DNA of 64,000 nt. Origin: Rarobacter incanus (GTDB lineage: Bacteria > Actinomycetota > Actinomycetes > Actinomycetales > Cellulomonadaceae). The notes beneath the pieces were generated by a model that made no database searches, was not told the origin of the DNA, and worked only from the letters and a program-made list of their open reading frames with translations. The translations under genes were made by a program, and so were the position numbers. Shown here piece by piece: positions 6,029 through 63,736 of the stretch. Within the stretch, counting starts at the first letter, position 1; each line of letters opens with the position of its first letter. Location: NCBI RefSeq assembly GCF_006715765.1, contig NZ_VFNV01000001.1:1302001-1366000 (forward strand), given 5' to 3'.

Positions 6029-6787
6029 ATGGCACGCCTTCTAGTCCGTCCCCCGTCACCAAAACTCGGCATGGGCGAGTTGACCCATTTCTCCCGCGTC
6101 GCAGTCGACGCGGACTTAGCGTTGGCGCAGTGGCGAGGGTACGTCGATGCCCTCGCCGCTGCCGGATTCTCCCCGCTTGAGGTCGCGTCCGCAGACAATC
6201 AGCCAGATGGCGTCTTTGTCGAGGACACGGTTGTCATGCTCGGCGCGACCGCCGTCATATCCCTTCCCGGCGCGGCCTCTCGCCGGGGCGAGATCGACAC
6301 AATGGCCCGCACCGTGAGCGAACTGGGGGTCGATGTCCAGCGGATCGTTTCTCCCGGGACGTTGGAGGGCGGAGACGTTCTCAAAGTCGGGTCGACCGTC
6401 TATGTCGGTCGCAGTTCACGCACCAATGACGCCGGCATCGCCCAGCTGGAGGCCATTGCCGCCCGCCTCGGCTACCGCGTCGTCGCCGTGCCCGTCACCA
6501 AGACGCTTCACCTCAAGAGCCAGGTCACCGCGCTGCCGGATGGCACCGTCATCGGGTACGAGCCATTAGTTGACTCCGCCGCGGTGTTCCCGAAGTTCCT
6601 GCCGGTGCCCGAACCCGAAGGCGTTGCCGTCGTCGTCCTGGACGAGTCGACCGTATTGATGTCCGCCGCCGCGCCGCGCACCGCCGAGCTGTTGCGCGAA
6701 CGCGGCCTGGCAGTCATCGCGGTCCCGATTACCGAGTTTGAAAAGATGGAGGGATGCGTGACCTGCCTTTCGGTGCGGGTCCGATAG
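6029..6787 (+). CDS. dimethylargininase / DDAH-like hydrolase
   Basis: This 252-residue protein has the pentein (beta/alpha propeller) fold of N(omega),N(omega)-dimethylarginine dimethylaminohydrolases, which convert methylated arginines to citrulline and methylamines. The visible motifs are FVEDTVVM (about 63-70), LEGGDVL (112-118), the catalytic-His motif TLHLKS with His161, and the C-terminal EGCVTCLSVRV, where Cys246 aligns with the nucleophile. It is a lone gene, divergent from the dnaK operon with about 210 bp between them, and its transcript runs into a palindromic-repeat field. Substrate is assigned by family only; other guanidino-modifying penteins look alike. Confidence 0.85.
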   Translation: MARLLVRPPSPKLGMGELTHFSRVAVDADLALAQWRGYVDALAAAGFSPLEVASADNQPDGVFVEDTVVMLGATAVISLPGAASRRGEIDTMARTVSELGVDVQRIVSPGTLEGGDVLKVGSTVYVGRSSRTNDAGIAQLEAIAARLGYRVVAVPVTKTLHLKSQVTALPDGTVIGYEPLVDSAAVFPKFLPVPEPEGVAVVVLDESTVLMSAAAPRTAELLRERGLAVIAVPITEFEKMEGCVTCLSVRVR

Positions 6788-7263
6788 GACGAGGCCCGCC
6801 CTCCCGCTGGTCGAGTAGCCCGGGCACCTTTCGGTCACACGCCCCCGCACAAACCGGCGCACTCGAACCAAAACCCCGCACTCGACGACCCCGCTGGTCG
6901 AGTTGCCCGCGCAGCGGGCGTATCGAGACCACCCCCCCCCGCGCGCCGACCGCGCCCCTTTCAGTCAAAACCCCTGCACTCGAACCAAAACCCCGCACTC
7001 GACGCCCCCGCTGGTCGAGTTGCCCGCGCAGCGGGCGTATCGAGACCACCCCCCCCGCGCGCCGAGCGCGCCCCTTTCAGTCAAAACCCCCGCACAAACC
7101 GGCGCACTCGAACCAAAACCCCGCACTCGACGCCCCCGCTGGTCGAGTTGCCCGCGCAGCGGGCGTATCGAGACCACCCCCGCGCACGCGCCGAGCGCGC
7201 CCCTTTCAGTCAGTGCCGGCCAAGAACGGCGACCTTCGAGGGTCGAGCCGCCCCCGGACTCGA
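6788..7263. repeat. palindromic REP-like repeat field between convergent genes
   Basis: This 476-bp gap has no credible gene. It holds three near-identical units beginning at 6896, 7013 and 7141 (periods 117 and 128 bp), and a degenerate start at 6808. Each unit contains GGTCGAGTTGCCCGCGCAG then CGGGCGTATCGAGACCACC, a nested palindrome with outer arms GGTCGAG/CGAGACC and inner stem GCCCGC/GCGGGC. Units are separated by CTTTCAGTCAAAACCCC and AACCAAAACCCCGCACTCGA spacers. It separates the DDAH-like gene from the convergent P-type ATPase gene and could act as a bidirectional terminator. Confidence 0.85.
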
Positions 7264-9114
7264 TCAGCGGGACGCGCGGGGCGCCCGCAGCGCGCGCAAC
7301 GCCCACAGGATCGACGTCAGATCGACCAGTTCTTGCAGCGCGGCCCCCACCACGGCGGGGATGGCCCCCGCGCCGGCGACCAACATGAGCACCACCGACA
7401 GTCCGATGCCTATGCCAATCGACTGCTTCGCTACCCGCACGGTCTGACGCGCTATAGTCACCAGCCGTGCCACGCCGGCGAGCGAATCGACCATGATCAC
7501 CGCATCGGCGGAGTCCGAGGCCGCGGTGGCGCCCGCCGCCCCCATCGCAACGCCAACATCGGCCGCCGCTAGGACGGGCGCGTCGTTGATCCCGTCGCCG
7601 ACCATCATCACGGGCCTGCGCGATTCTCCCCGCACCGCATCGACCTTGTCCGCGGGCAGCAGCCCCGCACGGATGTCGTCGATCCCAACCGCGTCGGCGA
7701 TCACCCGCGCCGTTGCGGCCCCGTCCCCGGTGAGCATCATCACGTGCTCGACGCCCCCACCACGCAGCTCCGCGATGACCCCAGCCGCCTCCGCGCGGAC
7801 CTCGTCGGCGAGCTCAATCCACCCCGCGTATTTGCCATCGATTCCGACATGAACCGCCAACCTGCCGGCCGGAAGATGCAGGGACGAGGCCCCCGCCTCC
7901 CCGTCCGCGGCCCCCGCAAACGCACGGCGACCCACGCGCACAGCCCGCCCTGACACCTGGGCGGCAACGCCGTGACCGGCCTGTTCGACAACACCGCTGG
8001 ATGCCCGCACGGCCAGGCCCCGTCCCTGTGCAGCCGCAACTATCGGGCCAGCCATGACGTGTCCCGAAAACTGTTCGGCCCCCGCCGCGAGCGCCAGCAA
8101 CTCGTCGGCGCAATGCGGGCCGTCATCTTGCGGATGCACGGCGACCACCTGGGGGTGTCCGTGGGTCAGCGTGCCGGTTTTGTCGAATGCGGCGGTGCGC
8201 AGCCGCGCCAGGATTTCCAGGACCCCGCCCCCTTTGACGACGACCTGGACGCGCGCCGCGCGGCTCATTCCCGCGAGGAAGGCGACCGGGGCCGCGATGA
8301 GCAGCGGGCATGGTGTCGCGACCACGAGAACCTGGGCAATGCGGGCCGGGTCGCCAGAGACCACCCAGGCGACCCCGGCGATGACCAGCGCCACCGCCGT
8401 GAACGGGACCGCTACCTTGTTCGCGAGCCGGACCATCGGGGCCTTCGAGGCCTGGGCCTCGCGGACCAGATCAACGATTCGTTGGTACTGGCTTTCGGCC
8501 GCGACGCGGGTCGCGCGCAGTCGCAGGGCGGCAGCCCCGTTGACAGCCCCGGACATGATCTGATCGCCAGCGCCAACCGATACGGGCATCGGCTCGCCGG
8601 TCAGGCTGGCCTCGTCGATGGAGCCATTGTTCGACAAGACAGTGCCATCCACGGGCACGATCTCGCCGGGCAGCACGACCAGTTCGTCGCCGACTGCGAC
8701 GTCGGAAGCGGCGACGATCTGCGCGACCCCGGAGGCAGCCACGCGGTGCGCCCGGGAGGGAGCTCGCTCGAGCAGGGAGGTCAGGGTGCGATTCGCGCGA
8801 TGTGAAGCGAAATCCTCCAGCGCCTCCCCGCCCGTGATCATGAGGACGACGATGAGGGACGCCCAATAGTCACCTACCGCAGCCGTCGATACGATCGCAA
8901 GGATCGCCAAAATATCGAGGCCGTACTCGCCGGCGGCGAACTCGCGGATCATTCCGACCAGCTGATTGACCGCCACGACCAGGACGAATGCGGTCAGCGG
9001 CCAACGGCCATATTCCCCGCGCCCCAGTGCAAGAAGCGCCAGGCCGACCATGGCCACCGCGAGTGTTGCTGCAACCCACGGATAGGCGCGCACCGCCACC
9101 AACATTTTCCTCAT
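7264..9114 (-). CDS. heavy-metal P1B-type ATPase, TPC variant
   Basis: This 616-residue membrane pump exports (or, less often, imports) a transition metal ion using ATP. The visible order is N-terminal membrane helices without any cytosolic CxxC metal-binding domain, the actuator domain (SLTGEPMPVSVGAGD at about 170), a metal-site helix containing ATPCPLL, the phosphorylation site DKTGTLTHG, and the hinge MVGDGINDAPVLAAADVGVAMG. The usual CPC motif is replaced by TPC, so the metal cannot be inferred with confidence. At about 615 residues it is short because the N-terminal metal domains are missing. The ATG at 9114 lies within tandem TATATCA repeats (9114-9120, 9124-9130) that may be an operator. 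Confidence 0.88.
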   Translation of the reverse strand: MRKMLVAVRAYPWVAATLAVAMVGLALLALGRGEYGRWPLTAFVLVVAVNQLVGMIREFAAGEYGLDILAILAIVSTAAVGDYWASLIVVLMITGGEALEDFASHRANRTLTSLLERAPSRAHRVAASGVAQIVAASDVAVGDELVVLPGEIVPVDGTVLSNNGSIDEASLTGEPMPVSVGAGDQIMSGAVNGAAALRLRATRVAAESQYQRIVDLVREAQASKAPMVRLANKVAVPFTAVALVIAGVAWVVSGDPARIAQVLVVATPCPLLIAAPVAFLAGMSRAARVQVVVKGGGVLEILARLRTAAFDKTGTLTHGHPQVVAVHPQDDGPHCADELLALAAGAEQFSGHVMAGPIVAAAQGRGLAVRASSGVVEQAGHGVAAQVSGRAVRVGRRAFAGAADGEAGASSLHLPAGRLAVHVGIDGKYAGWIELADEVRAEAAGVIAELRGGGVEHVMMLTGDGAATARVIADAVGIDDIRAGLLPADKVDAVRGESRRPVMMVGDGINDAPVLAAADVGVAMGAAGATAASDSADAVIMVDSLAGVARLVTIARQTVRVAKQSIGIGIGLSVVLMLVAGAGAIPAVVGAALQELVDLTSILWALRALRAPRASR

Positions 9115-9908: not shown

Positions 9909-10688
9909 CTACAGCTGCGGGATGAGACCCTCCAGGAATTCTGCGGTATCCGTCCATCCGGTGACGGCGTGGCAGGGAACCCCCAGCGCCTTGACAGGGT
10001 AGTCGTTTCCGTCCGGGTCCAGGCGGTCCCCCACGAAGAGCATGTCGTCGAGCGGGATACCGGTCAGCGCGGCCAGCTTCCTCATCCCGTATGCCTTGTC
10101 GATGCCCTTACGCGTGATGTCAACGGAGGTGGAACCCCCGGACCGCACCTCCAGATCCGGCACGTCGGCGGCGACTGCGTCGCGCAGCGCGGACTTCTTC
10201 GCGCCGGTCGGATCCCACGCGGATTTGGCGGCAACGGGCGCCTGCTGGCCGAGCGCGGAGAACGTGATCTGGCTGCCCCGATCCTCCAGGATCGGCCCCC
10301 ACGTGTCGGTCTCCCACAGGCCCAGTTCCTTGGCTCGCTTTTCAACGGAGGCGAGCGCCCGGGACTTTTCATCGTCCGTGAGGTCCTCGGCGTAGATCTG
10401 ATCCCAGCCACCGCTCGAGTGCGTGTAGTACTGCGTTCCGCAGGTCGGCATCAGGTGCAGGCGAGACAGTTCCTGGTCGCTGGCCCCCGTCAGGTTGTCG
10501 ATGACCTGCATTGTGAACTGGCCCAGTTGCCCACCGGAGATGATGCAAACCGGCACGCGGTCAAGGAGCCTGCGCAGCAGGTCCGCCATGCGCGGGTCGA
10601 GTGGCGACTTGGAGGGCGCGAGCGTGTCGTCGAGGTCGAATGCAACAAGTTTGGGGGTGCGGCCGGCGGCGCTGTCAGCAATAGTCAC
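9909..10688 (-). CDS. HAD-IIB phosphatase, phosphomannomutase-like
   Basis: This protein has about 259 residues. Motif I FDLDDTLAPS is near residue 15, motif II is ISGGQ near 50, and the motif III/IV region has DKAYGMRKLA followed by VGDRLDPDGNDYPVKALG. A C2-type cap domain lies between. The pattern, including GGSTSVDITRKGIDKAYG, resembles the alpha-phosphomannomutase branch of HAD-IIB, so interconversion of mannose-1-P and mannose-6-P is plausible, but a plain sugar phosphatase is possible. The GTG at 10688 is chosen because a TACAAT -10 box ends seven bases before it, which would make the mRNA leaderless; a GTG at 10694 is in frame. A LacI-type operator at 10711-10726, identical in core to that of the 54-58 kb ABC cluster, supports a role in mannoside use. 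Confidence 0.75.
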   Translation of the reverse strand: MTIADSAAGRTPKLVAFDLDDTLAPSKSPLDPRMADLLRRLLDRVPVCIISGGQLGQFTMQVIDNLTGASDQELSRLHLMPTCGTQYYTHSSGGWDQIYAEDLTDDEKSRALASVEKRAKELGLWETDTWGPILEDRGSQITFSALGQQAPVAAKSAWDPTGAKKSALRDAVAADVPDLEVRSGGSTSVDITRKGIDKAYGMRKLAALTGIPLDDMLFVGDRLDPDGNDYPVKALGVPCHAVTGWTDTAEFLEGLIPQL

Positions 10689-10694
10689 CCGCAC

Positions 10695-10700
10695 ATTGTA
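10695..10700 (-). promoter_or_regulatory. -10 box giving a likely leaderless HAD transcript
   Basis: Read leftward, TACAAT at 10700-10695 is a near-perfect -10 hexamer. The expected start point falls on or near the GTG at 10688, implying a leaderless mRNA. The LacI-type palindrome at 10711-10726 covers the -35 position. Confidence 0.5.
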
Positions 10701-10710
10701 CACAACATGT

Positions 10711-10726
10711 ACCGAAACGTTTCGGC
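10711..10726. promoter_or_regulatory. LacI-type operator upstream of the HAD gene
   Basis: The sequence ACCGAAACGTTTCGGC contains the perfect 14-bp palindrome CCGAAACGTTTCGG with the central CG typical of LacI-family operators. The same core occurs at 57996-58011 before the ABC transporter genes whose neighbour is a LacI regulator. It overlaps the presumed -35 region of the HAD gene and lies 86 bp before the divergent RAM-domain gene. Confidence 0.8.
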
Positions 10727-10811
10727 ATTGCGTCGTTGCGCTGCATGGGACTCGACGCGCGACAATGGAATCAGGCGCCACCCGTGCCAGCACCTACTTG
10801 GAAGGCCAGCC

Positions 10812-11093
10812 ATGATCACCGCCATTGTCCACATCGACACCGAACCAGACCAGATCCCCGAGGTTGCCCAGACCCTCGCCGACCTGCCCGGGGTCTCCGA
10901 GGTTTACTCCGTAACCGGAGACATTGACCTGATCGCCTTGGTTCGAGTTCGCCGCCACGAGGAACTGGCCGACGCAATCGCCGCCGGAATCTCGAAGGTG
11001 CCCGGCGTCCTGCGCACGCAGACCTTTATTGCGTTCCGCGCCTACTCCGAGCACGATCTGGAGCGGGCCTTCGACCTGGGCCTCGACGACTAA
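10812..11093 (+). CDS. stand-alone Lrp/AsnC ligand-binding (RAM) domain protein
   Basis: This 93-residue protein consists only of the alpha/beta ligand-binding domain of Lrp/AsnC regulators, with no helix-turn-helix: it begins MITAIVHIDTEPDQIPEVAQ and has the core GDIDLIALVRVR followed by GVLRTQTFIAF. These small proteins form dimers or larger rings that bind amino acids, and some modulate full-length Lrp proteins. The ATG at 10812 is preceded by GGAAGG. A long open frame extends upstream, but only this part is conserved-looking. The DUF606 transporter follows directly and may be cotranscribed, so amino-acid sensing linked to that transporter is possible but unproven. Confidence 0.85.
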   Translation: MITAIVHIDTEPDQIPEVAQTLADLPGVSEVYSVTGDIDLIALVRVRRHEELADAIAAGISKVPGVLRTQTFIAFRAYSEHDLERAFDLGLDD

Positions 11094-12954: not shown

Positions 12955-15468
12955 TCAGATGTCGTTGGTGGCCTGGTGCACCGCGGCGAGCGACTGCGGC
13001 ACCGTCGCGGTCATGCGAGTCCCGTCGGCGCGCCTTGTCCCTTCGATGTCGCCGACATCTGGTGACCCGATGATGCGCGGCGATTCCGGCAGCATGACGG
13101 TGACGGCCCCCGCCGAGGTAACCGTGACTAGCTTCCCGCACACGACGATGTCCGCCGCATCGCCGTCCTCCACGCTGAGGGTAACCTCACCCTGCCGCAC
13201 GTCCACGCGCACCCGCGTGCCAAGCAGGCAGAGCCTGAAGGTGAGTCCCTCCCACACCTCGGGCAGCCGCGGATCGAGCGAGAAAGTGCCCACGTAGTCA
13301 CGGAATCCGCCAAACCCGCAAACCAGCGCATTCCAGACCCCGCCGATGGACGCAACGTGCACACCGTCCGCCGCGTTGTGGTGCAGGTCGGCCAGGTCCA
13401 CGAAGGCCGCAGAACGGAAGTAGTCGAGCGCCAGTTCTTGGTACCCCACTTCCGAGGCGATGATCGACTGCACCACGGCGGACAGCGTCGAGTCGCCGGT
13501 CGTCAGGGGGTCGTAGTAGTCAAAGTCGGCCAGTTTATCGGCCGTCGTGAATTCGTCACCCTGCAAGAAGAGCGCAAGCACGACGTCGGCCTGCTTGAGA
13601 ACCTGGAACCTGTAAATGACAAGCGGATGGTAGTGCAGCAACAACGGGCGCTTGTCCGGCGGGGTATTGGGAAGGTCCCACAGTTCCTTTTCCAAGAACT
13701 GCGCATCTTGCGGGTGAATCCCCAGGCGGCCGTCGTACGGGATGGCCATGTGCTCGGCGGCCCGGTGCCACTGGGCCGTTTCATCCTCGGTGATCCCCAG
13801 TCGCCGGATCGCGTCCTGGTAGTGCTGCGGGAAGTCCCGCTTCAGCAGCGCCAACGCCCGCAACGCCCCGCGCAGGTTCGCGCGCGCCATCACGTTAGTG
13901 AACATGTTGTCGTTCACCACCGTCGTGTATTCGTCCGGGCCGGTGACGCCGTGAATATGGAAGGTATCGTCTCCATTTTCGCGCCAGAATCCCAGGTCTG
14001 CCCACAGACGTGCTGTTTCGACCAAGAGATCGATGCCCTCGCGGGCCAAGAAATCCTCGTCGCCGGTCGCGTTGACGTACTGACGCACCGCGTGGGCAAT
14101 GTCCGCATCGATGTGATACTGAGCTGTACCGGCCGCGTAGTAGGCGGAAGCCTCTTGGCCGTTGATGGTGCGCCACGGGAACAGGGCACCGTTCTGGTTC
14201 AGTTCGACCGCACGCTGCCGGGCGGCGGGCAGCATTGTGTACCGGAACCGCAACGCATTGCGGGCGTACAACGGCGACGTGTAGGTCAGGAACGGAAGCA
14301 CGTAAATTTCGGTGTCCCAGAAGTAGTGCCCGGAGTATCCCGAACCGGTCACACCCTTCGCGGGAATCCCATTTCCCTCCGCGCGCGCGGTCGCCTGCGC
14401 AAGCTCGAAAAGGTTCCACCGGATGGCCTGTTGCAGTTCGGGCTGCCCGTGGACCTCCACGTCGGATCGTGCCCAAAAGTCGTCCAACCAGGCACGCTGC
14501 CGCTTGAACTCGCCGCGCGCCCCTCGCTCCGCAACCCTGTCGAGCGTCATCTCGCAGCGTTCGATGAGCTCACGCGACGGCACACCGCGCGAGGTGTGGT
14601 AGCTAACCAGCTTGGTAACCGTGGTGGGCACGCCCGCGCGCGCGTGCACCTGGTAGACCTGCTTGCATACGTCCGCCTCCGCGGATCCCGATTGCGTGTA
14701 CGGGTTATCCGTCTCGATTGCGTGATCGGCCACCACACCGATGGTCATTCCCGACGAGGCCGCCCGATACCCCAGGGCGAGTCGCCCCTCGCGGTGCCAG
14801 TGGACCTCGGGCAGCAGGACTCGTCCCTGTAATGATTCCGCCTTGCGGGGATCCATCCCCTCTCCCATGGCGGCACTGGGAACGTAATACTCGTCTTGGC
14901 CGTCTTGCCGATTGAGCATCTGACACGAGATAGTGACCGGCACATCTGCCCCGTCCAAGACCGTTACCTCGTAGGTCATGACGGCAAGGTGACGTTCGGG
15001 GAAGGAAACCATGCGCTGCGACACGATGCGCACGCGCCTACCCGATGGCGTTTGCCACACCAAATCGCGGCGCAGCAAGCCGTCCCTGAAGTCCAGTTCG
15101 CGGGAATACTGGTGCAGATCCGCGACGGAAAGCAGCAGCGGTTCGTCATCCACGTAGATGCGGATGGTCTTCGCGTCGGGGGCATTGATGATGGTCTGCC
15201 CCACCTTCGCGAACCCGAAGGCCTCCTCAGCGTGGCGAATGGTCCAAGTCTCGTGGAATCCGTTGACGAAGGTCCCCTGGGAATGCGAATCGCGGCCCTC
15301 TTCGACGTTCCCGCGCAAGCCCAAGTAGCCGTTACCGACCGCGAAGAGAGTTTCGGTTACGCCCAGATCGGATCCGTCGTAACGGGTCTCGACCAGTCGC
15401 CAAGGATCAACGGGGAACCGGGTGCGGTCGATCGGATCGCCGTGCGGTGCCTTGCCGTGAGCCATCAC
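12955..15468 (-). CDS. GH65 family disaccharide phosphorylase (maltose/trehalose type)
   Basis: This 837-residue cytoplasmic enzyme has the GH65 layout. An N-terminal beta-sandwich is about residues 1-300, the (alpha/alpha)6 barrel starts around 345 (RWNLFELAQATARAEGNGIPAKG), and TGSGYSGHYFWDTEIY follows at about 370-385. The catalytic acid is the Glu of HGVTGPDEYTTVVNDN near 495. A short C-terminal beta domain ends the protein. Inverting phosphorolysis of an alpha-glucosyl disaccharide gives beta-glucose-1-phosphate and a sugar. The immediately upstream, overlapping beta-phosphoglucomutase gene supplies the next step. Maltose, trehalose, kojibiose and nigerose phosphorylases cannot be told apart here. 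The start is GTG at 15468 overlapping the pgmB stop, or the ATG just after. Confidence 0.9.
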   Translation of the reverse strand: MMAHGKAPHGDPIDRTRFPVDPWRLVETRYDGSDLGVTETLFAVGNGYLGLRGNVEEGRDSHSQGTFVNGFHETWTIRHAEEAFGFAKVGQTIINAPDAKTIRIYVDDEPLLLSVADLHQYSRELDFRDGLLRRDLVWQTPSGRRVRIVSQRMVSFPERHLAVMTYEVTVLDGADVPVTISCQMLNRQDGQDEYYVPSAAMGEGMDPRKAESLQGRVLLPEVHWHREGRLALGYRAASSGMTIGVVADHAIETDNPYTQSGSAEADVCKQVYQVHARAGVPTTVTKLVSYHTSRGVPSRELIERCEMTLDRVAERGARGEFKRQRAWLDDFWARSDVEVHGQPELQQAIRWNLFELAQATARAEGNGIPAKGVTGSGYSGHYFWDTEIYVLPFLTYTSPLYARNALRFRYTMLPAARQRAVELNQNGALFPWRTINGQEASAYYAAGTAQYHIDADIAHAVRQYVNATGDEDFLAREGIDLLVETARLWADLGFWRENGDDTFHIHGVTGPDEYTTVVNDNMFTNVMARANLRGALRALALLKRDFPQHYQDAIRRLGITEDETAQWHRAAEHMAIPYDGRLGIHPQDAQFLEKELWDLPNTPPDKRPLLLHYHPLVIYRFQVLKQADVVLALFLQGDEFTTADKLADFDYYDPLTTGDSTLSAVVQSIIASEVGYQELALDYFRSAAFVDLADLHHNAADGVHVASIGGVWNALVCGFGGFRDYVGTFSLDPRLPEVWEGLTFRLCLLGTRVRVDVRQGEVTLSVEDGDAADIVVCGKLVTVTSAGAVTVMLPESPRIIGSPDVGDIEGTRRADGTRMTATVPQSLAAVHQATNDI

Positions 15469-53522: not shown

Positions 53523-54617
53523 CTACACGCGGTCCAACCGCGCCACGCCGATCTTGGAGTCGGCCATTCCGTAGAACACGAAATAGTTACCCTCGATCTT
53601 CTCGATGGCGGTCGGGAACACCACGTTGGAAACGGTCCCGGAGGTTTCCTCGGCGGTGGCGGGTTCCAGGAGCGGCTGGGGCGTGCGCGCAATGACCTGC
53701 GACGGATCGTTCGCATCCAGAATCAAGGCGCCCGCGACGTACCGGACGTTTTGCTGCGGGGTGAACCCGCCGGCCTCGATCGTTCCGGTCACCCCGTGGT
53801 GCAGCACCAGCCACCCTTCGGGTATCCGCAGCGGGGCGGGCCCACCGCCGACCTTGAGCGCTTCCCAGTCGTACACCGAGCCCGCCACGAACGTGTGCCC
53901 CGACAGGCGAGTGAGCGCCGAGATGTCCTTCGCGACCTCGGCCGCGTCGATGTACGAGATCCAGATCGAGGCCCGGTCGTCGGTCGTTCCCGCGGGAAGC
54001 GGCGCGGGTTCGCCCGGCCGCACAAACGAGAAGTCCCACATCGGCCGGTGCAACACGGCATACGATGGCTTGCCGCCGGGTCCCGGCACGATCTCCGGGA
54101 AGTAGACGACGTCCTTGTTCGGGAACAGGTTCAGATCCGTATCCAGGTCATCCTCGTATCCGAAGAGCAGCGGACCGAGCCGGTCCCAGACCTTCCCATC
54201 GCGCGACACGGCCAAAGCGGGACGAGGCCCAAGCGGGCCGTAGGCAACATACGTCATGACGTGCGTGCCCAACGATGGCACCCAGGTGATGCGCGGATCC
54301 TCAACGCCGCCGTGATCGGAGCCGTGTTCCCAACCGCGGTCGGGGGTCAGCACCACGTCCTCGCGGACCACTCCGACCGGCACGCCCTGGTCGATGACGA
54401 CCCTGGCCCGGCCAATGCGCGAGACATTCCCTTTCGCCACCAGGCGCGGGTACAGGTAGAGATTACCGTCGCCATCCCATCCGGTTGCCGGATTCAGGAC
54501 GCCCTCTGCTTCAAGTTCGTTACCTGGCTCCGGGCTCATAATGACGCCCAAGCGTGTCAGCTTGTACGGAACAGTTTCCGTAGCTTCGGCTACCGCGGCC
54601 TGCTGAGGCGAGTTCAT
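53523..54617 (-). CDS. GH130-family glycosidase/phosphorylase
   Basis: This 364-residue five-bladed beta-propeller enzyme has the GH130 pattern: LNPATGWDGDGNLYLYPRLV (about 40-60), GVEDPRITWVP with the catalytic Asp (about 104-114), RPMWDFSFV, and LVLHHGVTG (about 268-276). Characterised GH130 members phosphorolyse beta-1,4- or beta-1,2-mannosides to alpha-mannose-1-phosphate; some are hydrolases. It is the last gene of an ABC transporter operon under a LacI-type operator, with ManA encoded just upstream. Mannose-1-P from this enzyme would need a phosphomannomutase, and a candidate is the HAD gene at 9.9 kb. Mannose or N-acetylhexosamine linkages remain possible. Confidence 0.88.
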   Translation of the reverse strand: MNSPQQAAVAEATETVPYKLTRLGVIMSPEPGNELEAEGVLNPATGWDGDGNLYLYPRLVAKGNVSRIGRARVVIDQGVPVGVVREDVVLTPDRGWEHGSDHGGVEDPRITWVPSLGTHVMTYVAYGPLGPRPALAVSRDGKVWDRLGPLLFGYEDDLDTDLNLFPNKDVVYFPEIVPGPGGKPSYAVLHRPMWDFSFVRPGEPAPLPAGTTDDRASIWISYIDAAEVAKDISALTRLSGHTFVAGSVYDWEALKVGGGPAPLRIPEGWLVLHHGVTGTIEAGGFTPQQNVRYVAGALILDANDPSQVIARTPQPLLEPATAEETSGTVSNVVFPTAIEKIEGNYFVFYGMADSKIGVARLDRV

Positions 54618-54656: not shown

Positions 54657-55556
54657 TCAGCCCTTGACGGCACCGACTACGCCGTTCACTAAGTACTTCT
54701 GGATGAAGATGTAACCAATGATCAGTGGCCCGGCAACGATCATGGTTGCGGCCGCAAGCAGGGTCCAGTTGTTCGAGTACGTTCCCTTGAAGGCGTTGAG
54801 ACCGGTCGCGATCGGCCACTTCGAGGAATCCGAAAGCAAAACTGTGGCGAGGATGATCTCGTTCCAAATCCACACCGCTTGCAGGATGAAGATCGTCGCC
54901 AAGGCGGGCCGCGCCAGCGGGAACACAAACGTAAACAGGTACCGCCAGTAGCCGATGCCGTCGATCGCGGCGGCCTCGTCCAATTCCGTCGGAATGGACT
55001 TCACAAATCCGCTGAACAGCAGGGGGCCGATCCCCACGCCGACTCCGACCATCAATATGTACCCGATGCGAGTGTCGTACAGGTGCAGATTGAGCAGCAG
55101 GTGGAACTGCGTCATCAGCGCATTCGGCAAGAACAGAACCAGCACAAAAAGCGCGTTCCACAGCTTGCCGCCGCGAATGTACTTGCGTGCCACCGGAAAG
55201 CCCATCACCAGGGCAATGAAGGTTCCGATCGACGCGCCCGCAAACGTGTACAGCGCTGTATTGAGGATGTAGTCGCCGAAGGCTCCGAGCCTCCAGGCTT
55301 CAGCGAAGTTGCTCCACTGCGGGTGTTCAACCAAACCGACGGGGTTCGTGATGAATTCTTGGCTGCTCTTGAGAGCCGTGTTGAACAGGTAGAGGAGCGG
55401 AAACAGGAAGATGATCATGATCACGGCGACCGCAATGTACGCGCCGATCGGTCGGTGCTTCTTGTGCAGCTTGCGCGTGGCGAAGTCGTCCGGCTTCGCC
55501 GCCAGAGTCAGGATCGGATCGCTGGCGGATTTCGCGGATGAAGTCACGGCATTCAC
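54657..55556 (-). CDS. sugar ABC transporter permease (MalG-like)
   Basis: This 299-residue inner-membrane permease has six helices and the EAA loop DEAAAIDGIGYWRYLFTFVFPLARPAL (about 200-225). A cytoplasmic N-terminus of about 40 residues (ATRKLHKKHRPIGAY) precedes helix 1. The GTG at 55556 overlaps the upstream permease stop (GTGA) and has GGAGG at its ideal distance. It forms the CUT1-type pair with the gene before it. No ATPase gene is in the cluster, so a shared MsiK-like ATPase is expected elsewhere. Confidence 0.92.
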   Translation of the reverse strand: MNAVTSSAKSASDPILTLAAKPDDFATRKLHKKHRPIGAYIAVAVIMIIFLFPLLYLFNTALKSSQEFITNPVGLVEHPQWSNFAEAWRLGAFGDYILNTALYTFAGASIGTFIALVMGFPVARKYIRGGKLWNALFVLVLFLPNALMTQFHLLLNLHLYDTRIGYILMVGVGVGIGPLLFSGFVKSIPTELDEAAAIDGIGYWRYLFTFVFPLARPALATIFILQAVWIWNEIILATVLLSDSSKWPIATGLNAFKGTYSNNWTLLAAATMIVAGPLIIGYIFIQKYLVNGVVGAVKG

Positions 55557-56473
55557 AGCTTGGCCTCCCGTCGGCGCAGGTACCACAGCGTTGCGAACGT
55601 GATGGCACCGACCAATACGAACTGGATCATTGAAATCGCGGCAGCATACCCCTGGGTCGCCCCCGGCATCTGGCGGCCCTGCGCATTGCCGAAGGCCTGC
55701 TCGTATACCTGGAGCGAGAGAAGTTGCGTCGCCTTGTTGCTCTGGCCAGTCAACACGTACGTCAACTGGTACGACTGCATGGCGTTGACGATGCCGAGCA
55801 GCACGTTCGCGGTGATGGAGGGGGCCAGCATCGGAATCGTGACGTAGCGGAATCGCTGCCAACTGTTGGCGCCGTCGATCCCGGCCACCTCGTACAGATC
55901 CGAGGGGATCGCTTGCAGTCCCGACAGGAAGATGATCACGGTCACACCGAGTTGCATCCAAACCTGGCAGAACACCACGAGATACAGGGCGATATTGTCG
56001 TCTCCGAAGAACGCCGATTCGGTTCCGAATGCATTCAGGATGCTTTGGATTGGGCCACCCGATGTGTTGAACATCAGGCTCCATATCAGCGCCGTGACGG
56101 TGACACCCAGCACGGTCGGCATGAAGACGATCGAGCGGTAGAAGTTGCGGCCCTTCAGCGGCCGGTTCAGCAGGATCGCCACGGCCAAGCCGATGCCGAT
56201 CTGAAACACGGTTGCGAGCGTCGCGAAGACGAGCGTGTTCGTCAGGGCGTTGATGTTGTCCGAGCGCCGCGCGGGGCCGAAGTACCGCGCATAGTTTTCA
56301 ATGCCGATCCAGTCGACCGGCAGGTTCGGCAAGCCCTTCAGGTTTGTGAACGAAACGACGACGACTGCTATCGCAGGCACAAACGCGAAGACGATGAGGA
56401 CTATGGCACCGACGGAGAAGGAGGTCCTGACGGGGTGCCTGCTCGGGAAGGGAAAAGAGGATGACGCAGCCAT
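55553..56473 (-). CDS. sugar ABC transporter permease (MalF-like)
   Basis: This 306-residue permease has six membrane helices, an EAA loop YEVAGIDGANSWQRFRYVTIPML (about 192-214), and the family N-terminal segment FVPAIAVVVVSFTNLKGLPNLPVDWIGIENYARYF. It follows the binding-protein gene after a 137-bp gap carrying a hairpin and overlaps the MalG-like gene. It belongs to the CUT1 oligosaccharide family. Confidence 0.92.
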   Translation of the reverse strand: MAASSSFPFPSRHPVRTSFSVGAIVLIVFAFVPAIAVVVVSFTNLKGLPNLPVDWIGIENYARYFGPARRSDNINALTNTLVFATLATVFQIGIGLAVAILLNRPLKGRNFYRSIVFMPTVLGVTVTALIWSLMFNTSGGPIQSILNAFGTESAFFGDDNIALYLVVFCQVWMQLGVTVIIFLSGLQAIPSDLYEVAGIDGANSWQRFRYVTIPMLAPSITANVLLGIVNAMQSYQLTYVLTGQSNKATQLLSLQVYEQAFGNAQGRQMPGATQGYAAAISMIQFVLVGAITFATLWYLRRREAKL

Positions 56474-56610: not shown

Positions 56611-57972
56611 CTAGAACGCCTTGGTCCACGCAGATTCAGCGGCGGCCGCGGCGCCCGCGGCATCGCTCGATCCGAGCGGCTTGAGCGCAGGGTAGTTGAA
56701 CGGGAAGGATGCGTCGTCGCCCGCATTCGGGTTGGCGATCCACAAGGACTCCCACACCGGCTCAAACTGCGAGGTCTGGTCGGCGATGCTGTTCAGGAAG
56801 TCGCTCTGGTCGATGTCGGGCTGAGCCGAGCTGAATCCGGACGTCTCGACGAACTTGGTGTAGGTGTCCTTTTGCGAGAACAAGTCCAGGAAGGCCAGCG
56901 CCGCAGCCTGGTTCTTCGAGGAGGCCGACACGGCGAGTTGCAGTTCGATCTTTCCGTTCAGGTACTTGTTGTCGGCGGCGTTGTCCGACCCCGGGAACGG
57001 GAAGTAGCCGATCTCGAACTGGTCGTTCACAGCAGTGGCAATGGTCGGTTGGTTCCACGTGCCGTCGGGCAGCATCGCGAACTCGCCGCGCGCAAACGCC
57101 GCCGGCATGTCGTCGTAGCCCGCACCCGAGAAGTTCTTCTGCGCGTGCTCGAAGACCCACTGCGTCTTCTTCAAGACGTCGAGGGGCTTGCCGGAGGTCA
57201 GGGACACGCTCTGGTTCCACAGCCCGTCAATCGTTGCCTGCTTGTCGGCGGCCGTCGGGTACTCCGAGCCGACCGCGCCGAGCATGACCAGGCCTGCGGG
57301 CCAGGTGTCCTTGCCGCCGATGCCGAAGGCGGTGACGCCCGCCTTTTCTAGCTTTTCCGTGGCAGCTTGCAGCTCGCTCCACGTGGTCGGGGCCTCAATT
57401 CCGTTGTCCGAGAAGATCTTCTTGTTGTAGTACACGCCGGTGACGTAGGACGTTCCGGTGGGAACCGCGTACTGCTTGCCGCCGATCGCCTGCGAATCCA
57501 GGACCGACTGCGTGTAGTTCTTCATGAACGCCTGGTCGGTCAGGTCGACGAGGCCACCCGACTGAGCCAGCTGGACGTCTTCGGAAACCGAATCCTGCGC
57601 GTAGTCGGGCATTTCGCGGAACGTCTTGACGACGAATACGTCAACCTTGCCCGCGGTAAGCTGCGCCGACTTTGTGGTCGGGTACGTGTCGTTGGGTACG
57701 GAGTTGAGCGTCGCCTTTGCGTTCGGGTACTTCGCGTTGAACGCGTCAATGACCTCGCCGAATGCCTTGTCCGACGCGTCCGCGCTCGAAACGAGGATGT
57801 TCAGGTCGCCGGTGACGTCGGATGCTGATGGGCTGCCGGATCCGCCCGTCGATGTCGCCGTGTCAGATGAACCACCGCCACAAGCCGCCAGCCCTGCGAC
57901 CAGACCGAGCGTTGCTGTTGCCGCAACAATGCGGCCGATTGCCGTCGAACGGCGCAACTTCTTCGTTGCCAT
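56611..57972 (-). CDS. sugar ABC transporter substrate-binding lipoprotein
   Basis: This 453-residue lipoprotein has a lipobox LAAC with Cys31, then a Gly/Ser/Thr-rich linker and a family-1 extracellular solute-binding domain (SADASDKAFGEVIDAFNAKYPNAKA; KFVETSGFSSAQPD near the end). ATG 57972 has AGGAG five bases upstream and is preferred over a longer frame. A LacI-type operator lies 24 bp before the start. Sugar type is not evident from sequence; the GH130 gene in the same operon suggests beta-manno-oligosaccharides. Confidence 0.92.
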   Translation of the reverse strand: MATKKLRRSTAIGRIVAATATLGLVAGLAACGGGSSDTATSTGGSGSPSASDVTGDLNILVSSADASDKAFGEVIDAFNAKYPNAKATLNSVPNDTYPTTKSAQLTAGKVDVFVVKTFREMPDYAQDSVSEDVQLAQSGGLVDLTDQAFMKNYTQSVLDSQAIGGKQYAVPTGTSYVTGVYYNKKIFSDNGIEAPTTWSELQAATEKLEKAGVTAFGIGGKDTWPAGLVMLGAVGSEYPTAADKQATIDGLWNQSVSLTSGKPLDVLKKTQWVFEHAQKNFSGAGYDDMPAAFARGEFAMLPDGTWNQPTIATAVNDQFEIGYFPFPGSDNAADNKYLNGKIELQLAVSASSKNQAAALAFLDLFSQKDTYTKFVETSGFSSAQPDIDQSDFLNSIADQTSQFEPVWESLWIANPNAGDDASFPFNYPALKPLGSSDAAGAAAAAESAWTKAF

Positions 57973-57995: not shown

Positions 57996-58011
57996 ACCGA
58001 AACGTTTCGGT
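57996..58011. promoter_or_regulatory. LacI-type operator of the ABC/GH130 operon
   Basis: ACCGAAACGTTTCGGT is a perfect 16-bp palindrome between a TAGAGT -10-like box (about 58021-58026, leftward) and the binding-protein start. It is in the roadblock position. The LacI-family gene 134 bp further upstream is the likely binder. Two direct repeats TTCGTTATC at 58063-58071 and 58074-58082, one helical turn apart, may be a further site. Confidence 0.88.
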
Positions 58012-58144: not shown

Positions 58145-59176
58145 CTATTTGGGGCACTTTCCCGTCGAGTGTCGCACTATCAGCTGCCCCGGGGCCAGGT
58201 CAACGACGCGCCCGGCCGATCCGGCCGGGTCCTCGATCACGTCCAGCAGCAGGTTGGCCGCGGCCGCCGCCACGCGCCGCGGGGCGGCCTGCACGGTCGA
58301 CAGAGTAGGCCTGATGTACGTTCCCATCGCGATACCGTCATAGCCCCCGACGGACAGGTCACCCGGCACGTCCCAACCCAGTTCCTGCGCCCGTATTATC
58401 AGGCCCACCGCCGCAAGATCGTTGGCGCAGACCACCGCGGTCGGCCGATCAACCATCTGCGAAATCGCATCGGCCGCCGCCCGACCGCCCTGGTACGTAA
58501 AGTCGCCGGGGATGAGCGTATCGGCACGCAACCCGTGCCGCGCCATCTCCGCCCTCCACGCTTCGACGCGCTCCCTGGCATGCACAAACCGCGCGGGGCC
58601 GGAGACATGCGCGATGTTCGTGTGCCCCTGGTCGACCAGGTGGCGGACCATCGCCGCGACACCCGGCGCGCTCGGCTGCCGCACGCATGGCAGCTCGAAT
58701 CCCTCGGCACTGGGAACGATCCCAACCGCAGGCATTCCAATTTCATTCATGAGCGGGAGCCGTGGATCATCGACCCGCAATTCGTTGAGCAAGACCCCGT
58801 CCACGCGCCGATTTGCTGCTAACTCCCGGTACCTGTTCTCGGTGTCGCGTTCGTTGGTCCCCATGTGGAGCACTAGCGCGTAGCCACGCGGCGATAGCGC
58901 CTGTTCGATCCCGCCGATGAAGGAGGCGAAGAAGGGATCCGACTCCAGGACATCCAGGCTGCGCTGCAACACAAATCCGATAGCGAATGCGCGCTTGGTT
59001 GACAGGCTCCGGCCGCGCAGGGAGGGCACGTAGCCAAGCTCGCTCGCCGCCCGCTGCACGCGTGCGCGCGTTGCCTCCGAAACGCCCGGCCGCCCATTGA
59101 GCGCCGCCGAGGCTGAACTAATCGCAACCCCGGCGCGCGCCGCGACATCGACGATTGTGACGCGATCCGTCTCCAC
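58145..59176 (-). CDS. LacI-family transcriptional regulator
   Basis: This 343-residue repressor has an N-terminal HTH (VTIVDVAARAGVAISSASAALNG, residues 6-28) with hinge-helix, then a periplasmic-binding-type sugar domain (AIGFVLQRSLDVLES, HVSGPARFVHARERVEAW, VVCANDLAAVGLIIRAQELGWDVPGDLSVGGYDGIAMGTYIRPTLSTVQ). Its gene lies between manA and the binding-protein gene, all leftward. The perfect palindromes at 57996-58011 and 10711-10726 are its probable targets. No copy of that operator is seen before its own gene. Confidence 0.93.
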   Translation of the reverse strand: METDRVTIVDVAARAGVAISSASAALNGRPGVSEATRARVQRAASELGYVPSLRGRSLSTKRAFAIGFVLQRSLDVLESDPFFASFIGGIEQALSPRGYALVLHMGTNERDTENRYRELAANRRVDGVLLNELRVDDPRLPLMNEIGMPAVGIVPSAEGFELPCVRQPSAPGVAAMVRHLVDQGHTNIAHVSGPARFVHARERVEAWRAEMARHGLRADTLIPGDFTYQGGRAAADAISQMVDRPTAVVCANDLAAVGLIIRAQELGWDVPGDLSVGGYDGIAMGTYIRPTLSTVQAAPRRVAAAAANLLLDVIEDPAGSAGRVVDLAPGQLIVRHSTGKCPK

Positions 59177-59319: not shown

Positions 59320-60558
59320 TCACGGCACGCCGACGACCGCCACCCGCCCGTGCCCCGACAGCTCCAGGGACTCGCCGGCGCCTAAAAATACGGCGTCACC
59401 AGCGACTAGGGCGGCTCGTCCATCGGGGCAATTCGCCCTGGTCTGCCCGTCCAACGCTATCGCGACACGCGCCCCGTGCGCGCCTTTCGTTTCAACGCTG
59501 GCACCGGCGATCCCGTAGATGGTGACCTGGTATTCGCTAAAATGCGCCGGGTAGGACTGCACAGTCGCATTGGCGCCACCTTCCGCTCGTGGATGATCGA
59601 CGAGCGCCCCGCCCGCCGTGAAATCCACGATCGCCAGGAGTTCGTCGATGTCGACCCGCTTCGAGGTGAGGCCGGCCCGGATCACGTTGTCCGAACTGGC
59701 CATGACCTCCAGGCCCAGCCCGTCGAGGTAGCAGTGCACAACCCCCGCGCCGACGCTCAGCGCCGCTCCCGGTTCGAGCGATCTAGGTTGCAGGAAGATC
59801 GTGGCCAAAACGCCCACGTCGCCGGGGTAGAACTCCAGGACCTCCCGCGCAACCGCCAGGGAATCCTGCCCCCAGGTGCCATCGGCCGGCGCGCTGCCGC
59901 CGCTGCCGCCGCTGCCTGCCAGGGGAATGCCTTGCAGCGCGGTCAGCGCCGAATCTATGGCGCCGCGATCCAGGCGCAGAACCGTTTCGAATGCGTCCCG
60001 CAGCCCGTTCGCGGGCTGTCGCAACTGCGAAATTGCCGCCCGCAGCACGTCCGGCGCGAGCCTTTCGAGGTCCGCCGCGACGGATTCCGCGTCCCGGAAG
60101 CCGGCCAGGGCGCGCGTCGGAACCAGTGCCAGCAGGGTTTCGGGTTTGTGCTTGTCGTCGGCGTAGTTGCGGCTCGCCGGCGGCGTGCGGTCGGCGCCCT
60201 CCCGCGCAAATCCCCGCGCGGCCTGGTCGCTGTTGGGATGCACCTGGAGCGAAAGTGGCCTCGCCGCCGCGAGCAGCTTCACCAGGTACGGCAGGGCGCG
60301 TCCGTTCGGCTCGCGCAGCGCGCGGGGGTTTTCGGCAAGCCATCGGTCGAGGCGCTCGGATCTGGGGCCCAAGTCCGCGTCGACGCCCGCGGCCGGCACG
60401 CACGGCGACACGGAGCTGGCGAGTGCCGGAGCCGATGGGTGCGCGCCGTACCAGATTTCCGCCCAGGGCCTGCCGTCACCTGGAAGGCCCAGGAAGGCCG
60501 GAAGCGCCTCACGCGATCCCCAATCGTATGCCTGGAGTCGGCCCTGCAACCTCAGCAT
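59320..60558 (-). CDS. manA: mannose-6-phosphate isomerase, class I
   Basis: This 412-residue zinc enzyme converts mannose-6-P to fructose-6-P. The type I PMI signature is visible: AEIWYGAHPSAPA (about 33-45), YLVKLLAAARPLSLQVHPNSDQA (about 88-110) with the zinc Gln-His pair, DDKHKPETLLAL (about 133-144), and VGAGVVHCYLDGLGLEVMASSDNVIRAGLT with a catalytic Arg (about 260-288). ATG 60558 follows GAAGGAAG at four bases. It lies within the ROK-manA-lacI-ABC-GH130 cluster and supplies the step from mannose phosphate into glycolysis. A perfect palindrome at 60609-60624 lies in its promoter. Confidence 0.93.
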   Translation of the reverse strand: MLRLQGRLQAYDWGSREALPAFLGLPGDGRPWAEIWYGAHPSAPALASSVSPCVPAAGVDADLGPRSERLDRWLAENPRALREPNGRALPYLVKLLAAARPLSLQVHPNSDQAARGFAREGADRTPPASRNYADDKHKPETLLALVPTRALAGFRDAESVAADLERLAPDVLRAAISQLRQPANGLRDAFETVLRLDRGAIDSALTALQGIPLAGSGGSGGSAPADGTWGQDSLAVAREVLEFYPGDVGVLATIFLQPRSLEPGAALSVGAGVVHCYLDGLGLEVMASSDNVIRAGLTSKRVDIDELLAIVDFTAGGALVDHPRAEGGANATVQSYPAHFSEYQVTIYGIAGASVETKGAHGARVAIALDGQTRANCPDGRAALVAGDAVFLGAGESLELSGHGRVAVVGVP

Positions 60559-62543: not shown

Positions 62544-62852
62544 GTGCCTAAGCCCTACCCGTCCGAATTCCATGATGACGTCGTGCGCGTCGCCCGCAAC
62601 CGTGAGCCCGCAGTGACGATCGAGCAGATCGGATAAGACTTCGGGGTCCACCCGATGACGCTGCACAAGTGGCTGCGTCGCGCCGACATCGACGAGAGCG
62701 CCAAGCCCGGCCAGTCTCGGACCGAGGCGGCGGAGATCCGTGAGGCGCGCAAGCGGATCCGACTCCTCGAGCAGGAGAACGAGGTCCTTTGGCGGGCGGC
62801 GGCGTATCTGTCGCAGGCGAACCTGCCGGGAAAAGGCTCTACCCGCTCGTGA
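62544..62852 (+). pseudogene. IS3-family OrfA, interrupted by a stop codon
   Basis: From GTG 62544 the reading gives PKPYPSEFHDDVVRVARNRE and then an in-frame TAA at 62634-62636 (after EQIG), beyond which the reading resumes DFGVHPMTLHKWLRRADID...RIRLLEQENEVLWRAAAYLSQANLPGKGS. This is the HTH plus leucine zipper of IS3 OrfA, about 102 residues if intact. A lysine codon AAG to TAA change is the simplest explanation. It runs into orfB through an AAAAG slip site. Confidence 0.88.
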
Positions 62853-63736
62853 CAGAGCTCGCCGCTGACGGAGTCCCCGTCGCGGTGACGCGCCGGGTTC
62901 TCAAGCTCTCCCGCCAGCCCTACTACCTGTGGCTGGCTGACCCCATCACGCCCAGCGAGGTGGTGGAGGCGTATCGCACGAACGCGCTGTTCGACGCCCA
63001 CCAGGACGACCCCGAGCTCGGGCACCGGCTCCTCGCCGACGAGGCCCGTGATGAGGGCGAAGCAATGTCGGACCGGACCGCGTGGCGGATCGCCGCGAGC
63101 AACGGCTGGTGGAGCGCGTTCGGGAAACCCAAGCGCGGCAAGCACCGCAAGCCGGGCCCGCCCGTCCACGACGACCTCTGCGCCGTCGTCGACGAGCACG
63201 GCAGGACCCGGCAGGTGTTCGCCGCCGACGCGCCGAACGAACTCTGGCTCGTGGACATCACGGAGCACAAGACCGCGGAGGGCAAGCTCTACTGTTGCGC
63301 GATCAAAGACGCGTTCTCAGGTCGGATCGTCGCGTACTCAATCGACTCCCGAATGAAGTCTCGTTTGGCTGTTCAGGCGCTCGAGAACGCCGTCGCCATG
63401 CGCGGTGACGTCGCAGGCTGCGTGGTCCATTCGCACCGAGGATCTCAATTCCGAAGCAGGAAATTCCTGCGCGCGCTGACCCGTCACCGCATGATCGGGT
63501 CCATGGGCCGAGTCGGCTCCAGCGGAGACAACGCGGCCATGGAGAGCTTCTTCGCGCTCCTGCAGAACAACGTCCTCGACCGCCAGTCCTGGACCACGCG
63601 TGAGCAGTTGCGCATCGCGATCGGGACCTGGATCGAACCGACCTACCACCGCCGACGTCGACAGGCCCGCCTGGGCCGTTTGACGCCCATCGAGTTCGAG
63701 ACCATCATGAACACGACCGTCACACTGGCGGCGTGA
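62789..63736 (+). CDS. IS3-family OrfB transposase, catalytic Asp replaced by His
   Basis: This frame of about 315 residues covers the IS3 OrfB: HTH_21-like YPLVTELAADGVPVAVTRRVLKLSRQPYY, then the rve core with first Asp in NELWLVDITEH (about 155). The second DDE Asp should be in VVHSDRGSQ but here reads VVHSHRGSQF (about 213-222). The Glu is in DNAAMESFF (about 250). The IS likely makes OrfAB by -1 frameshift, and the true OrfB N-terminus is uncertain. With Asp to His at the active site the enzyme should be inactive. Confidence 0.9.
   Translation: MAGGGVSVAGEPAGKRLYPLVTELAADGVPVAVTRRVLKLSRQPYYLWLADPITPSEVVEAYRTNALFDAHQDDPELGHRLLADEARDEGEAMSDRTAWRIAASNGWWSAFGKPKRGKHRKPGPPVHDDLCAVVDEHGRTRQVFAADAPNELWLVDITEHKTAEGKLYCCAIKDAFSGRIVAYSIDSRMKSRLAVQALENAVAMRGDVAGCVVHSHRGSQFRSRKFLRALTRHRMIGSMGRVGSSGDNAAMESFFALLQNNVLDRQSWTTREQLRIAIGTWIEPTYHRRRRQARLGRLTPIEFETIMNTTVTLAA

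Follow-up and report, generated by a model that had tools for sequence, protein, structure and literature searches.

We propose that Rarobacter incanus possesses a mannoside regulon, governed by a LacI-family regulator, in which a HAD-IIB protein (HAD hereafter) is the genome's phosphomannomutase in ManB's stead, and that both the swap of the two enzymes and the recruitment of HAD have taken place repeatedly, a reading that we regard as very probable. It is based on a computational analysis of a stretch of 64,000 nucleotides (the window), positions 1302001-1366000 of a genome of 2,486,262 bases in one contig (G000), and of related genomes. An earlier reading of the same DNA (the original prediction) had suggested a dispersed beta-mannoside regulon, and at the genome level this is largely supported by the operator, the gene linkage and the mutual exclusion of HAD and ManB. 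More generally, we think it likely that HAD-IIB proteins of this kind are a widespread and unrecognised family of bacterial phosphomannomutases, which displaced ManB in roughly one in four of the order's sampled genomes, several times independently, and which was repeatedly recruited to GH130 loci, either by insertion into the operon or, in Rarobacter and strain KH10, by gain of a LacI operator.

Phosphomannomutase catalyses a key step in mannoside use and in the synthesis of GDP-mannose, the donor for cell-envelope mannose, and human PMM2 is the enzyme defective in PMM2-CDG.

A palindrome shared by two promoters

The original prediction placed the same 14-bp palindrome, CCGAAACGTTTCGG, at 10712-10725 and 57997-58010 of the window; both copies are exact and they are the only exact ones in the genome (2.49 Mb). 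The features concerned are as follows.

9909-10688, minus strand: HAD-IIB phosphohexomutase, predicted phosphomannomutase, 259 aa with a GTG start (PF03332/PF08282)
10712-10725, no strand: operator 2, exact 14 bp, 23 bp upstream of the likely HAD GTG
10812-11093, plus strand: stand-alone Lrp/AsnC ligand-binding-domain protein, divergent from HAD (PF01037)
53523-54617, minus strand: GH130, predicted beta-mannoside phosphorylase (PF04041, 103.2 bits against a cut-off of 26)
54657-55556, minus strand: ABC transporter permease 2, start approximate, within the longer ORF 54657-56084 (PF00528)
55553-56473, minus strand: ABC transporter permease 1 (PF00528)
56611-57972, minus strand: sugar ABC transporter solute-binding protein (PF01547)
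57996-58011, no strand: operator 1, 14-bp core at 57997-58010, 24 bp upstream of the binding-protein ATG
58145-59176, minus strand: LacI-family regulator, candidate repressor for both operators (PF00356/PF13377)
59320-60558, minus strand: ManA, mannose-6-phosphate isomerase type I (PF20511, TIGR00218)

Operator 1, where the palindrome widens to 16 bp (57996-58011), is followed by the sugar-binding protein, the two permeases and the GH130 enzyme in that order, and upstream of it, on the same strand, lie the genes for LacI, ManA and a ROK protein. For HAD, the listed ORF (9909-10793) includes the palindrome, and the start at 10688, which is shared by congeners, is downstream of it. The Lrp/AsnC-domain gene, whose divergent arrangement with HAD recurs in two relatives (G001 and G002, described below), may share the operator region with HAD. 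Elsewhere in the window, by eye, an ORF at 62789-63736 reads as an IS3-family transposase, and in the translations of 6729-7572 a unit of some 40-45 residues recurs, which suggests direct repeats in the DNA.

The original prediction had called for a genome-wide search allowing one mismatch and had feared many unrelated copies. Besides the two exact sites, that search returned two one-mismatch sites (at 199114 and 2386798), and many unrelated copies are therefore absent; with the site also kept at both promoters in two congeners, the reading of a single operator held up. The reversed control of CCGAAACGTTTCGG gave no exact or one-mismatch site in this genome, and at up to two mismatches there were 23 sites against 3 for the control. 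Within the window, nine sites were found at up to three mismatches, compared with 5.1 expected from shuffles; one of the seven non-exact sites has two mismatches and six have three. A chance origin of the common site was considered and ruled out, because the reversed control at up to one mismatch gave zero sites in each of the nine genomes searched.

The first one-mismatch site (199114-199127; L022:9115-9128) falls at the start of a gene whose 1314-aa product is probably secreted and has no clear family; a paralogue 38% identical to it comes next, and the gene is a possible third member of the regulon. The second is one of two operator-like sites 70 bp apart, at 2386728 and 2386798 (L023:9729 and L023:9799; two mismatches and one, respectively), which lie, by eye, beside an IS21-type istAB pair and have no obvious target gene.

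The GH130 enzyme

The best solved match of the window's GH130 enzyme is a GH130 beta-1,2-mannobiose phosphorylase (PDB 7fip), although the strong match is confined to the C-terminal third. In the hydrolase BT3780, the glutamates E227 and E268 are described as replacing phosphate-binding basic residues (PMC4599007). The window enzyme has a glutamate at neither position: G257 occupies that of E268 (HMMER alignment) and R191 that of E227 (hand alignment), a residue pattern which favours a phosphorylase and not a hydrolase. All 14 aligned sequences share R191, K255 and H274, the putative phosphate binders. K168, which aligns with the NKDV motif of Lin0857 at a score of only 4.9 bits (compare K199 of BT3780), hints at a beta-1,2 linkage.

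The operator in related genomes

Both promoters carry the exact 14 bp in Rarobacter faecitabidus DSM 4813 (G001), of the same genus, and in Micrococcales bacterium KH10 (G002). In the regions upstream of HAD in these two genomes and our own, the palindrome has an identical 23-bp spacing and part of the promoter adjoining the start is also kept, while most of the other sequence has diverged. At up to one mismatch, the whole genome of G001 contains only two sites, one upstream of HAD and one upstream of the binding-protein gene, and that of G002 contains four, two of which are in these same places.

The other two G002 sites precede genes of large secreted-looking proteins with relatives at GH130 loci of other species. 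One, with an exact operator upstream, encodes a large protein with F5/8C and FIVAR domains (L119:3698-8122), whose relatives are found at the GH130 loci L177 and L251, at L121, and in G003, where the gene is preceded by a one-mismatch site. The other (L120:3159-6113), with a one-mismatch operator upstream in G002, is related to a protein of G012 (L063:14958-18083) that has a weak, below-cut-off match to six-hairpin glycosidases; further relatives of this pair are found at GH130 loci and, in our own genome, close to another LacI gene (L025). The N-terminal parts of the secreted proteins under these other sites gave no informative Pfam or PDB match.

The exact core precedes the binding-protein gene in five relatives (G001, G002, G012, G015 and G412). 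In Ruaniaceae KH17 (G412), exact sites stand before the binding-protein gene and between the divergent manA and HAD genes, and an exact operator precedes manA in both G015 and G412; none was found before manA in our own genome. G015 has a LacI/GH130 locus with operators before the binding-protein gene and manA, and its HAD gene lies elsewhere without an operator. Even with two mismatches allowed, the HAD neighbourhoods fetched for G015, G018, G027, G038, G039, G054 and G055 contain no site. In G003, which is of the same genus and 81% complete, HAD has no match and both one-mismatch sites lie at different genes; G018 possesses HAD without a GH130 match, and neither of its two one-mismatch sites is near HAD. 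One-mismatch sites also occur in G090 and G184, which have a match at the level of ManB (4.4e-168 and 3.4e-167) and none to HAD. Outside mannoside loci, operator-like one-mismatch sites were noted in G018 (C1:1214368 and C1:3892462) and G003 (C360:199), one of them, by eye, just past the end of a clpX-like gene.

Ten of the best 80 of 564 GH130 matches in genome contigs have a related transporter (permease identity of 52% or more); nine of these loci carry a site at up to one mismatch, and none of the 70 others does. The tenth related locus, without a site, is a 4-kb contig, the G003 counterpart stopping inside the binding-protein gene; six of the ten are the same records as G001, G002, G003, G090, G184 and G412. 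The palindrome thus behaves as a LacI-family operator would: it is short, perfect, located at promoters, and kept across species with the regulator's locus.

Sequence and family of the HAD protein

The original prediction noted that the HAD sequence resembles phosphomannomutases, and this agrees with its match to PF03332, the family of eukaryotic phosphomannomutases (PMMs), at 27.4 bits against a cut-off of 22.4. Among NCBIfam models, only TIGR01484 (HAD-IIB family hydrolase) is above its cut-off. D16, D18, T20, G218, D219, G225, N226 and D227, which form the DxDxT and GD...GND motifs that we take to define PF03332, are invariant in 13 of 13 aligned sequences. The best match in the PDB is 4bnd (E 2e-49, residues 47-291 of the listed ORF), which we take to be PgmH of Lactococcus lactis, and phosphomannomutases come next, with a near full-length profile match to 6i5x (E 1.5e-21).

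Five further residues, R135, Q146, K153, S186 and D188, are also invariant in all 13 sequences. The aligned PMM chains have R, R, R, S and D at these positions, and 4bnd has R, Q, K, T and N. The three cap arginines of PMMs, which presumably correspond to R123, R134 and R141 in PMM2 residue numbering, are thus not all kept, as only R135 remains and Q146 and K153 (13 of 13) take the place of the others. Because of these mixed residues, the HAD group, as judged from its alignment, is neither typical of eukaryotic PMMs nor typical of PgmH.

HAD and ManB rarely occur together

With respect to DISPLACEMENT, our own genome has two PF02878 proteins, GlmM (TIGR01455, 546 bits) and Pgm (TIGR01132, 869 bits, cut-off 778). 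ManB (NF007088) is absent from it, the sole match being the GlmM gene at 166.5 bits against a cut-off of 618. In a table of 59 relatives, our own genome included, 11 have HAD, and ManB is missing in 10 of these 11 compared with 3 of the 48 others. The three (G003, G004 and G047) are in 320-410 contigs, and G047, counted as ManB-negative, may hold a fragment of ManB, given a partial match of 141 bits located on a short contig; G028, G042, G046 and G057, which fall below the cut-off and far above the level of GlmM, were counted as ManB-positive.

Across 396 genomes of the order, ManB is missing in 98 of the 99 with a strong HAD match, as against 11 of the 297 others (Fisher p 5e-79, relatedness ignored). 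Here a genome counted as having ManB if its best NF007088 match had an E-value below 1e-70, which holds for 287 genomes, 202 of which pass the curated cut-off; G287 (5.4e-78) counts as ManB-positive, one weak HAD match (G202, 2.6e-4) was removed from an initial 100, and at most four candidates for ManB and six for HAD were scored per genome. Three families hold both states, and in each of them ManB absence tracks HAD: it is missing in 6 of 6 HAD genomes compared with 0 of 29 others in f1, 7 of 7 compared with 0 of 17 in f13, and 22 of 23 compared with 0 of 10 in f19, the family that includes Microbacterium sp. T32. The exchange of HAD for ManB is therefore a recurrent one. The 11 of 396 genomes without either enzyme include several that are incomplete or very small.

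The original prediction had HAD in place of an AlgC-type mutase, and the ManB-less state of our own genome and the near mutual exclusion over 396 genomes bear this out; on these grounds HAD is most likely a phosphomannomutase. In some HAD genomes unclassed proteins of the AlgC superfamily may give a second route, since they hold further PF02878 proteins (total matches are 3 in G001, 4 in G002, 5 in G012 and 3 in G015, with 2 in our own genome). In G324, HAD is encoded about 2 kb from a gene for GDP-mannose 4,6-dehydratase (TIGR01472, 514 bits).

HAD or ManB in one operon slot

That HAD belongs to the GH130 pathway, as originally predicted, is borne out by gene linkage. HAD directly follows GH130 in G012 and in Micrococcales 72-143 (by about 20 bp in the latter), and it lies beside the cluster in two further genomes: in KH17 (L187) the binding protein, two permeases and GH130, in that order, are found together with LacI, ManA and HAD, and in G396, a genome which also has ManB, HAD comes after LacI, next to the GH130 operon. 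AlgC-type ManB comes directly after GH130, with ManA following it, in G009 and Cellulosimicrobium funkei. Occupation of the same slot after GH130 by two unrelated mutases is the strongest argument that ManB and HAD do the same job. In the stretches fetched for the best 80 of 564 GH130 loci, HAD is present in 2, ManB in 2 and neither mutase in 76; the 17 further GH130 neighbourhoods fetched from the order sample include 2 with HAD and 0 with ManB.

A single dedicated clade of GH130-linked HAD proteins was considered and dropped. A 42-row tree of the available HAD sequences scatters the GH130-linked copies over about four positions (Rarobacter; G012 and 72-143 at the base; G412; and G396), so recruitment to GH130 loci looks repeated, although the long branches of G012 and 72-143 may have been grouped artificially and support is weak at some nodes.

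Two side observations concern these loci. The ManB-less G412 has two HAD copies, one in the mannoside locus (C61:19747-20478) and one elsewhere (C45:74167-74892), possibly a catabolic/biosynthetic split. A GH92 glycosidase is encoded in the same 20-kb stretch of G012 as the GH130-HAD operon (L063:1-4398); GH92 enzymes are alpha-mannosidases and would suggest that the food is fungal mannan or N-glycan.

Proposed mechanism and alternatives

We hypothesise that the LacI-family repressor encoded at 58145-59176 most likely binds CCGAAACGTTTCGG before the binding-protein and HAD genes, and that a mannoside or its product would release it from both promoters. The ABC transporter would import the mannoside, which GH130, with phosphate, would convert to alpha-mannose-1-phosphate; HAD (9909-10688) would then convert mannose-1-phosphate to mannose-6-phosphate, and ManA would convert this to fructose-6-phosphate. 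The choice of this protein among the four LacI proteins encoded in the genome, its binding and repression, and the nature of the transported substrate are all predicted. HAD most likely supplies phosphomannomutase activity and displaced ManB repeatedly; the activity is predicted from the genomic context, and its preference for mannose is something that we infer from the same context, because the solved structure nearest to it belongs to an alpha-phosphoglucomutase. If the organism requires GDP-mannose constantly, it would be awkward for its only phosphomannomutase to be under repression.

One alternative is that HAD is an alpha-phosphoglucomutase like L. lactis PgmH, serving glucose-1-phosphate that comes perhaps from a nearby GH65 enzyme, with its link to GH130 being indirect. 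HAD shares with 4bnd, its best PDB match, the cap residues Q146 and K153, a GH65 gene (12955-15468) lies about 2.3 kb from HAD in the window and 2.4-3.3 kb away in G001 and G002, and HAD-type PMMs can have glucomutase activity too, as described for HAD5 of Plasmodium (PMC8808168). However, S186 and D188 are as in PMMs, where 4bnd has T and N, the L. lactis branch of the tree is very long (8.3 changes per site), and HAD replaces ManB and takes its slot after GH130. GH65 phosphorylases, moreover, yield beta-glucose-1-phosphate, which needs a different mutase. As our own genome already has Pgm, well above its cut-off, and ManB is missing, we consider a PgmH-type glucomutase distinctly improbable. 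That HAD is instead a sugar phosphatase stripping phosphate from pathway intermediates, as the hydrolase name of TIGR01484, its only NCBIfam model above cut-off, would allow, is barely credible: the best solved full-length matches are mutases, and the exclusion of ManB and the common slot would be expected of a mutase and not of a phosphatase.

It is also conceivable, if unlikely, that another LacI protein uses the palindrome as a general site of the LacI family or of catabolite repression and that there is no regulon dedicated to HAD and GH130. The core, AAACGTTT, is generic to the LacI family and common among its sites, any of the four LacI proteins could be involved, and a one-mismatch site in G012 adjoins a second LacI gene, though it is also just before a secreted-protein gene. 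Nevertheless, G000, G001 and G002 have two to four sites each when one mismatch is allowed, few for a global site, and the restriction of the site to loci with a related transporter (9 of 10 compared with 0 of 70 among the best 80 of 564) argues for a dedicated operator, as in the mannoside regulon proposed here.

Significance

In 98 of the 99 HAD genomes the usual ManB gene is missing and its likely replacement is labelled only as a generic hydrolase. If our proposal is true, a gap would be closed in the metabolic maps of relatives of Microbacterium and of several other families, a large protein family would be renamed, bacterial relatives of human PMM2 would become available to study, and a catabolic regulon would be shown to have gained a distant gene by way of one conserved operator. 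What is new here is the type of mutase, the remote membership of the regulon and the repeated displacement of ManB; in the titles and abstract openings of the papers retrieved from a mostly openly accessible literature, no bacterial HAD-IIB protein was assigned a phosphomannomutase function.

Comparison with known systems

ManB (AlgC-type, NF007088) has the same predicted reaction as HAD and, in G009 and C. funkei, the same slot, but belongs to a different protein superfamily. PgmH, which is reportedly the subject of a 2006 paper on the alpha-phosphoglucomutase of L. lactis, fills in for the missing Pgm of its genome. It is a bacterial hexose-phosphate mutase of the same HAD-type fold family and gives a near full-length match; in contrast to HAD, it is described as a glucomutase, has T and N at the positions of S186 and D188 and sits on its own very long branch. 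HAD does not stand in for a missing Pgm, as Pgm is present in our own genome and it is ManB that is missing. The eukaryotic-type PMMs (PMM1, PMM2 and Plasmodium HAD5) have S and D at positions 186 and 188 in common with HAD, but in HAD two of their three cap arginines are exchanged for Q146 and K153; HAD5 itself is described as a PMM with some glucomutase activity (PMC8808168).

Protease I of R. faecitabidus is described in a review as mannose-binding and yeast-lytic (PMC1458353). For B. thetaiotaomicron, a route from mannose-1-phosphate to fructose-6-phosphate is described in a paper on Thermoanaerobacter enzymes (PMC4264767). A comparable system is the beta-mannan locus MULL of Roseburia intestinalis, for which a LacI-type regulator, a GH130 phosphorylase and a mutase are described as raised together on mannan (PMC6385246). 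That mutase, RiPgm, is reported to convert mannose-1-phosphate to mannose-6-phosphate, to be induced with the LacI/GH130 locus, to act also on glucose-1-phosphate and to have a predicted magnesium-binding loop (PMC6385246), and is probably an ordinary AlgC-type enzyme. In our own genome, unlike in MULL, the mutase is of the HAD-IIB type and is encoded 47 kb away, being tied in by the operator.
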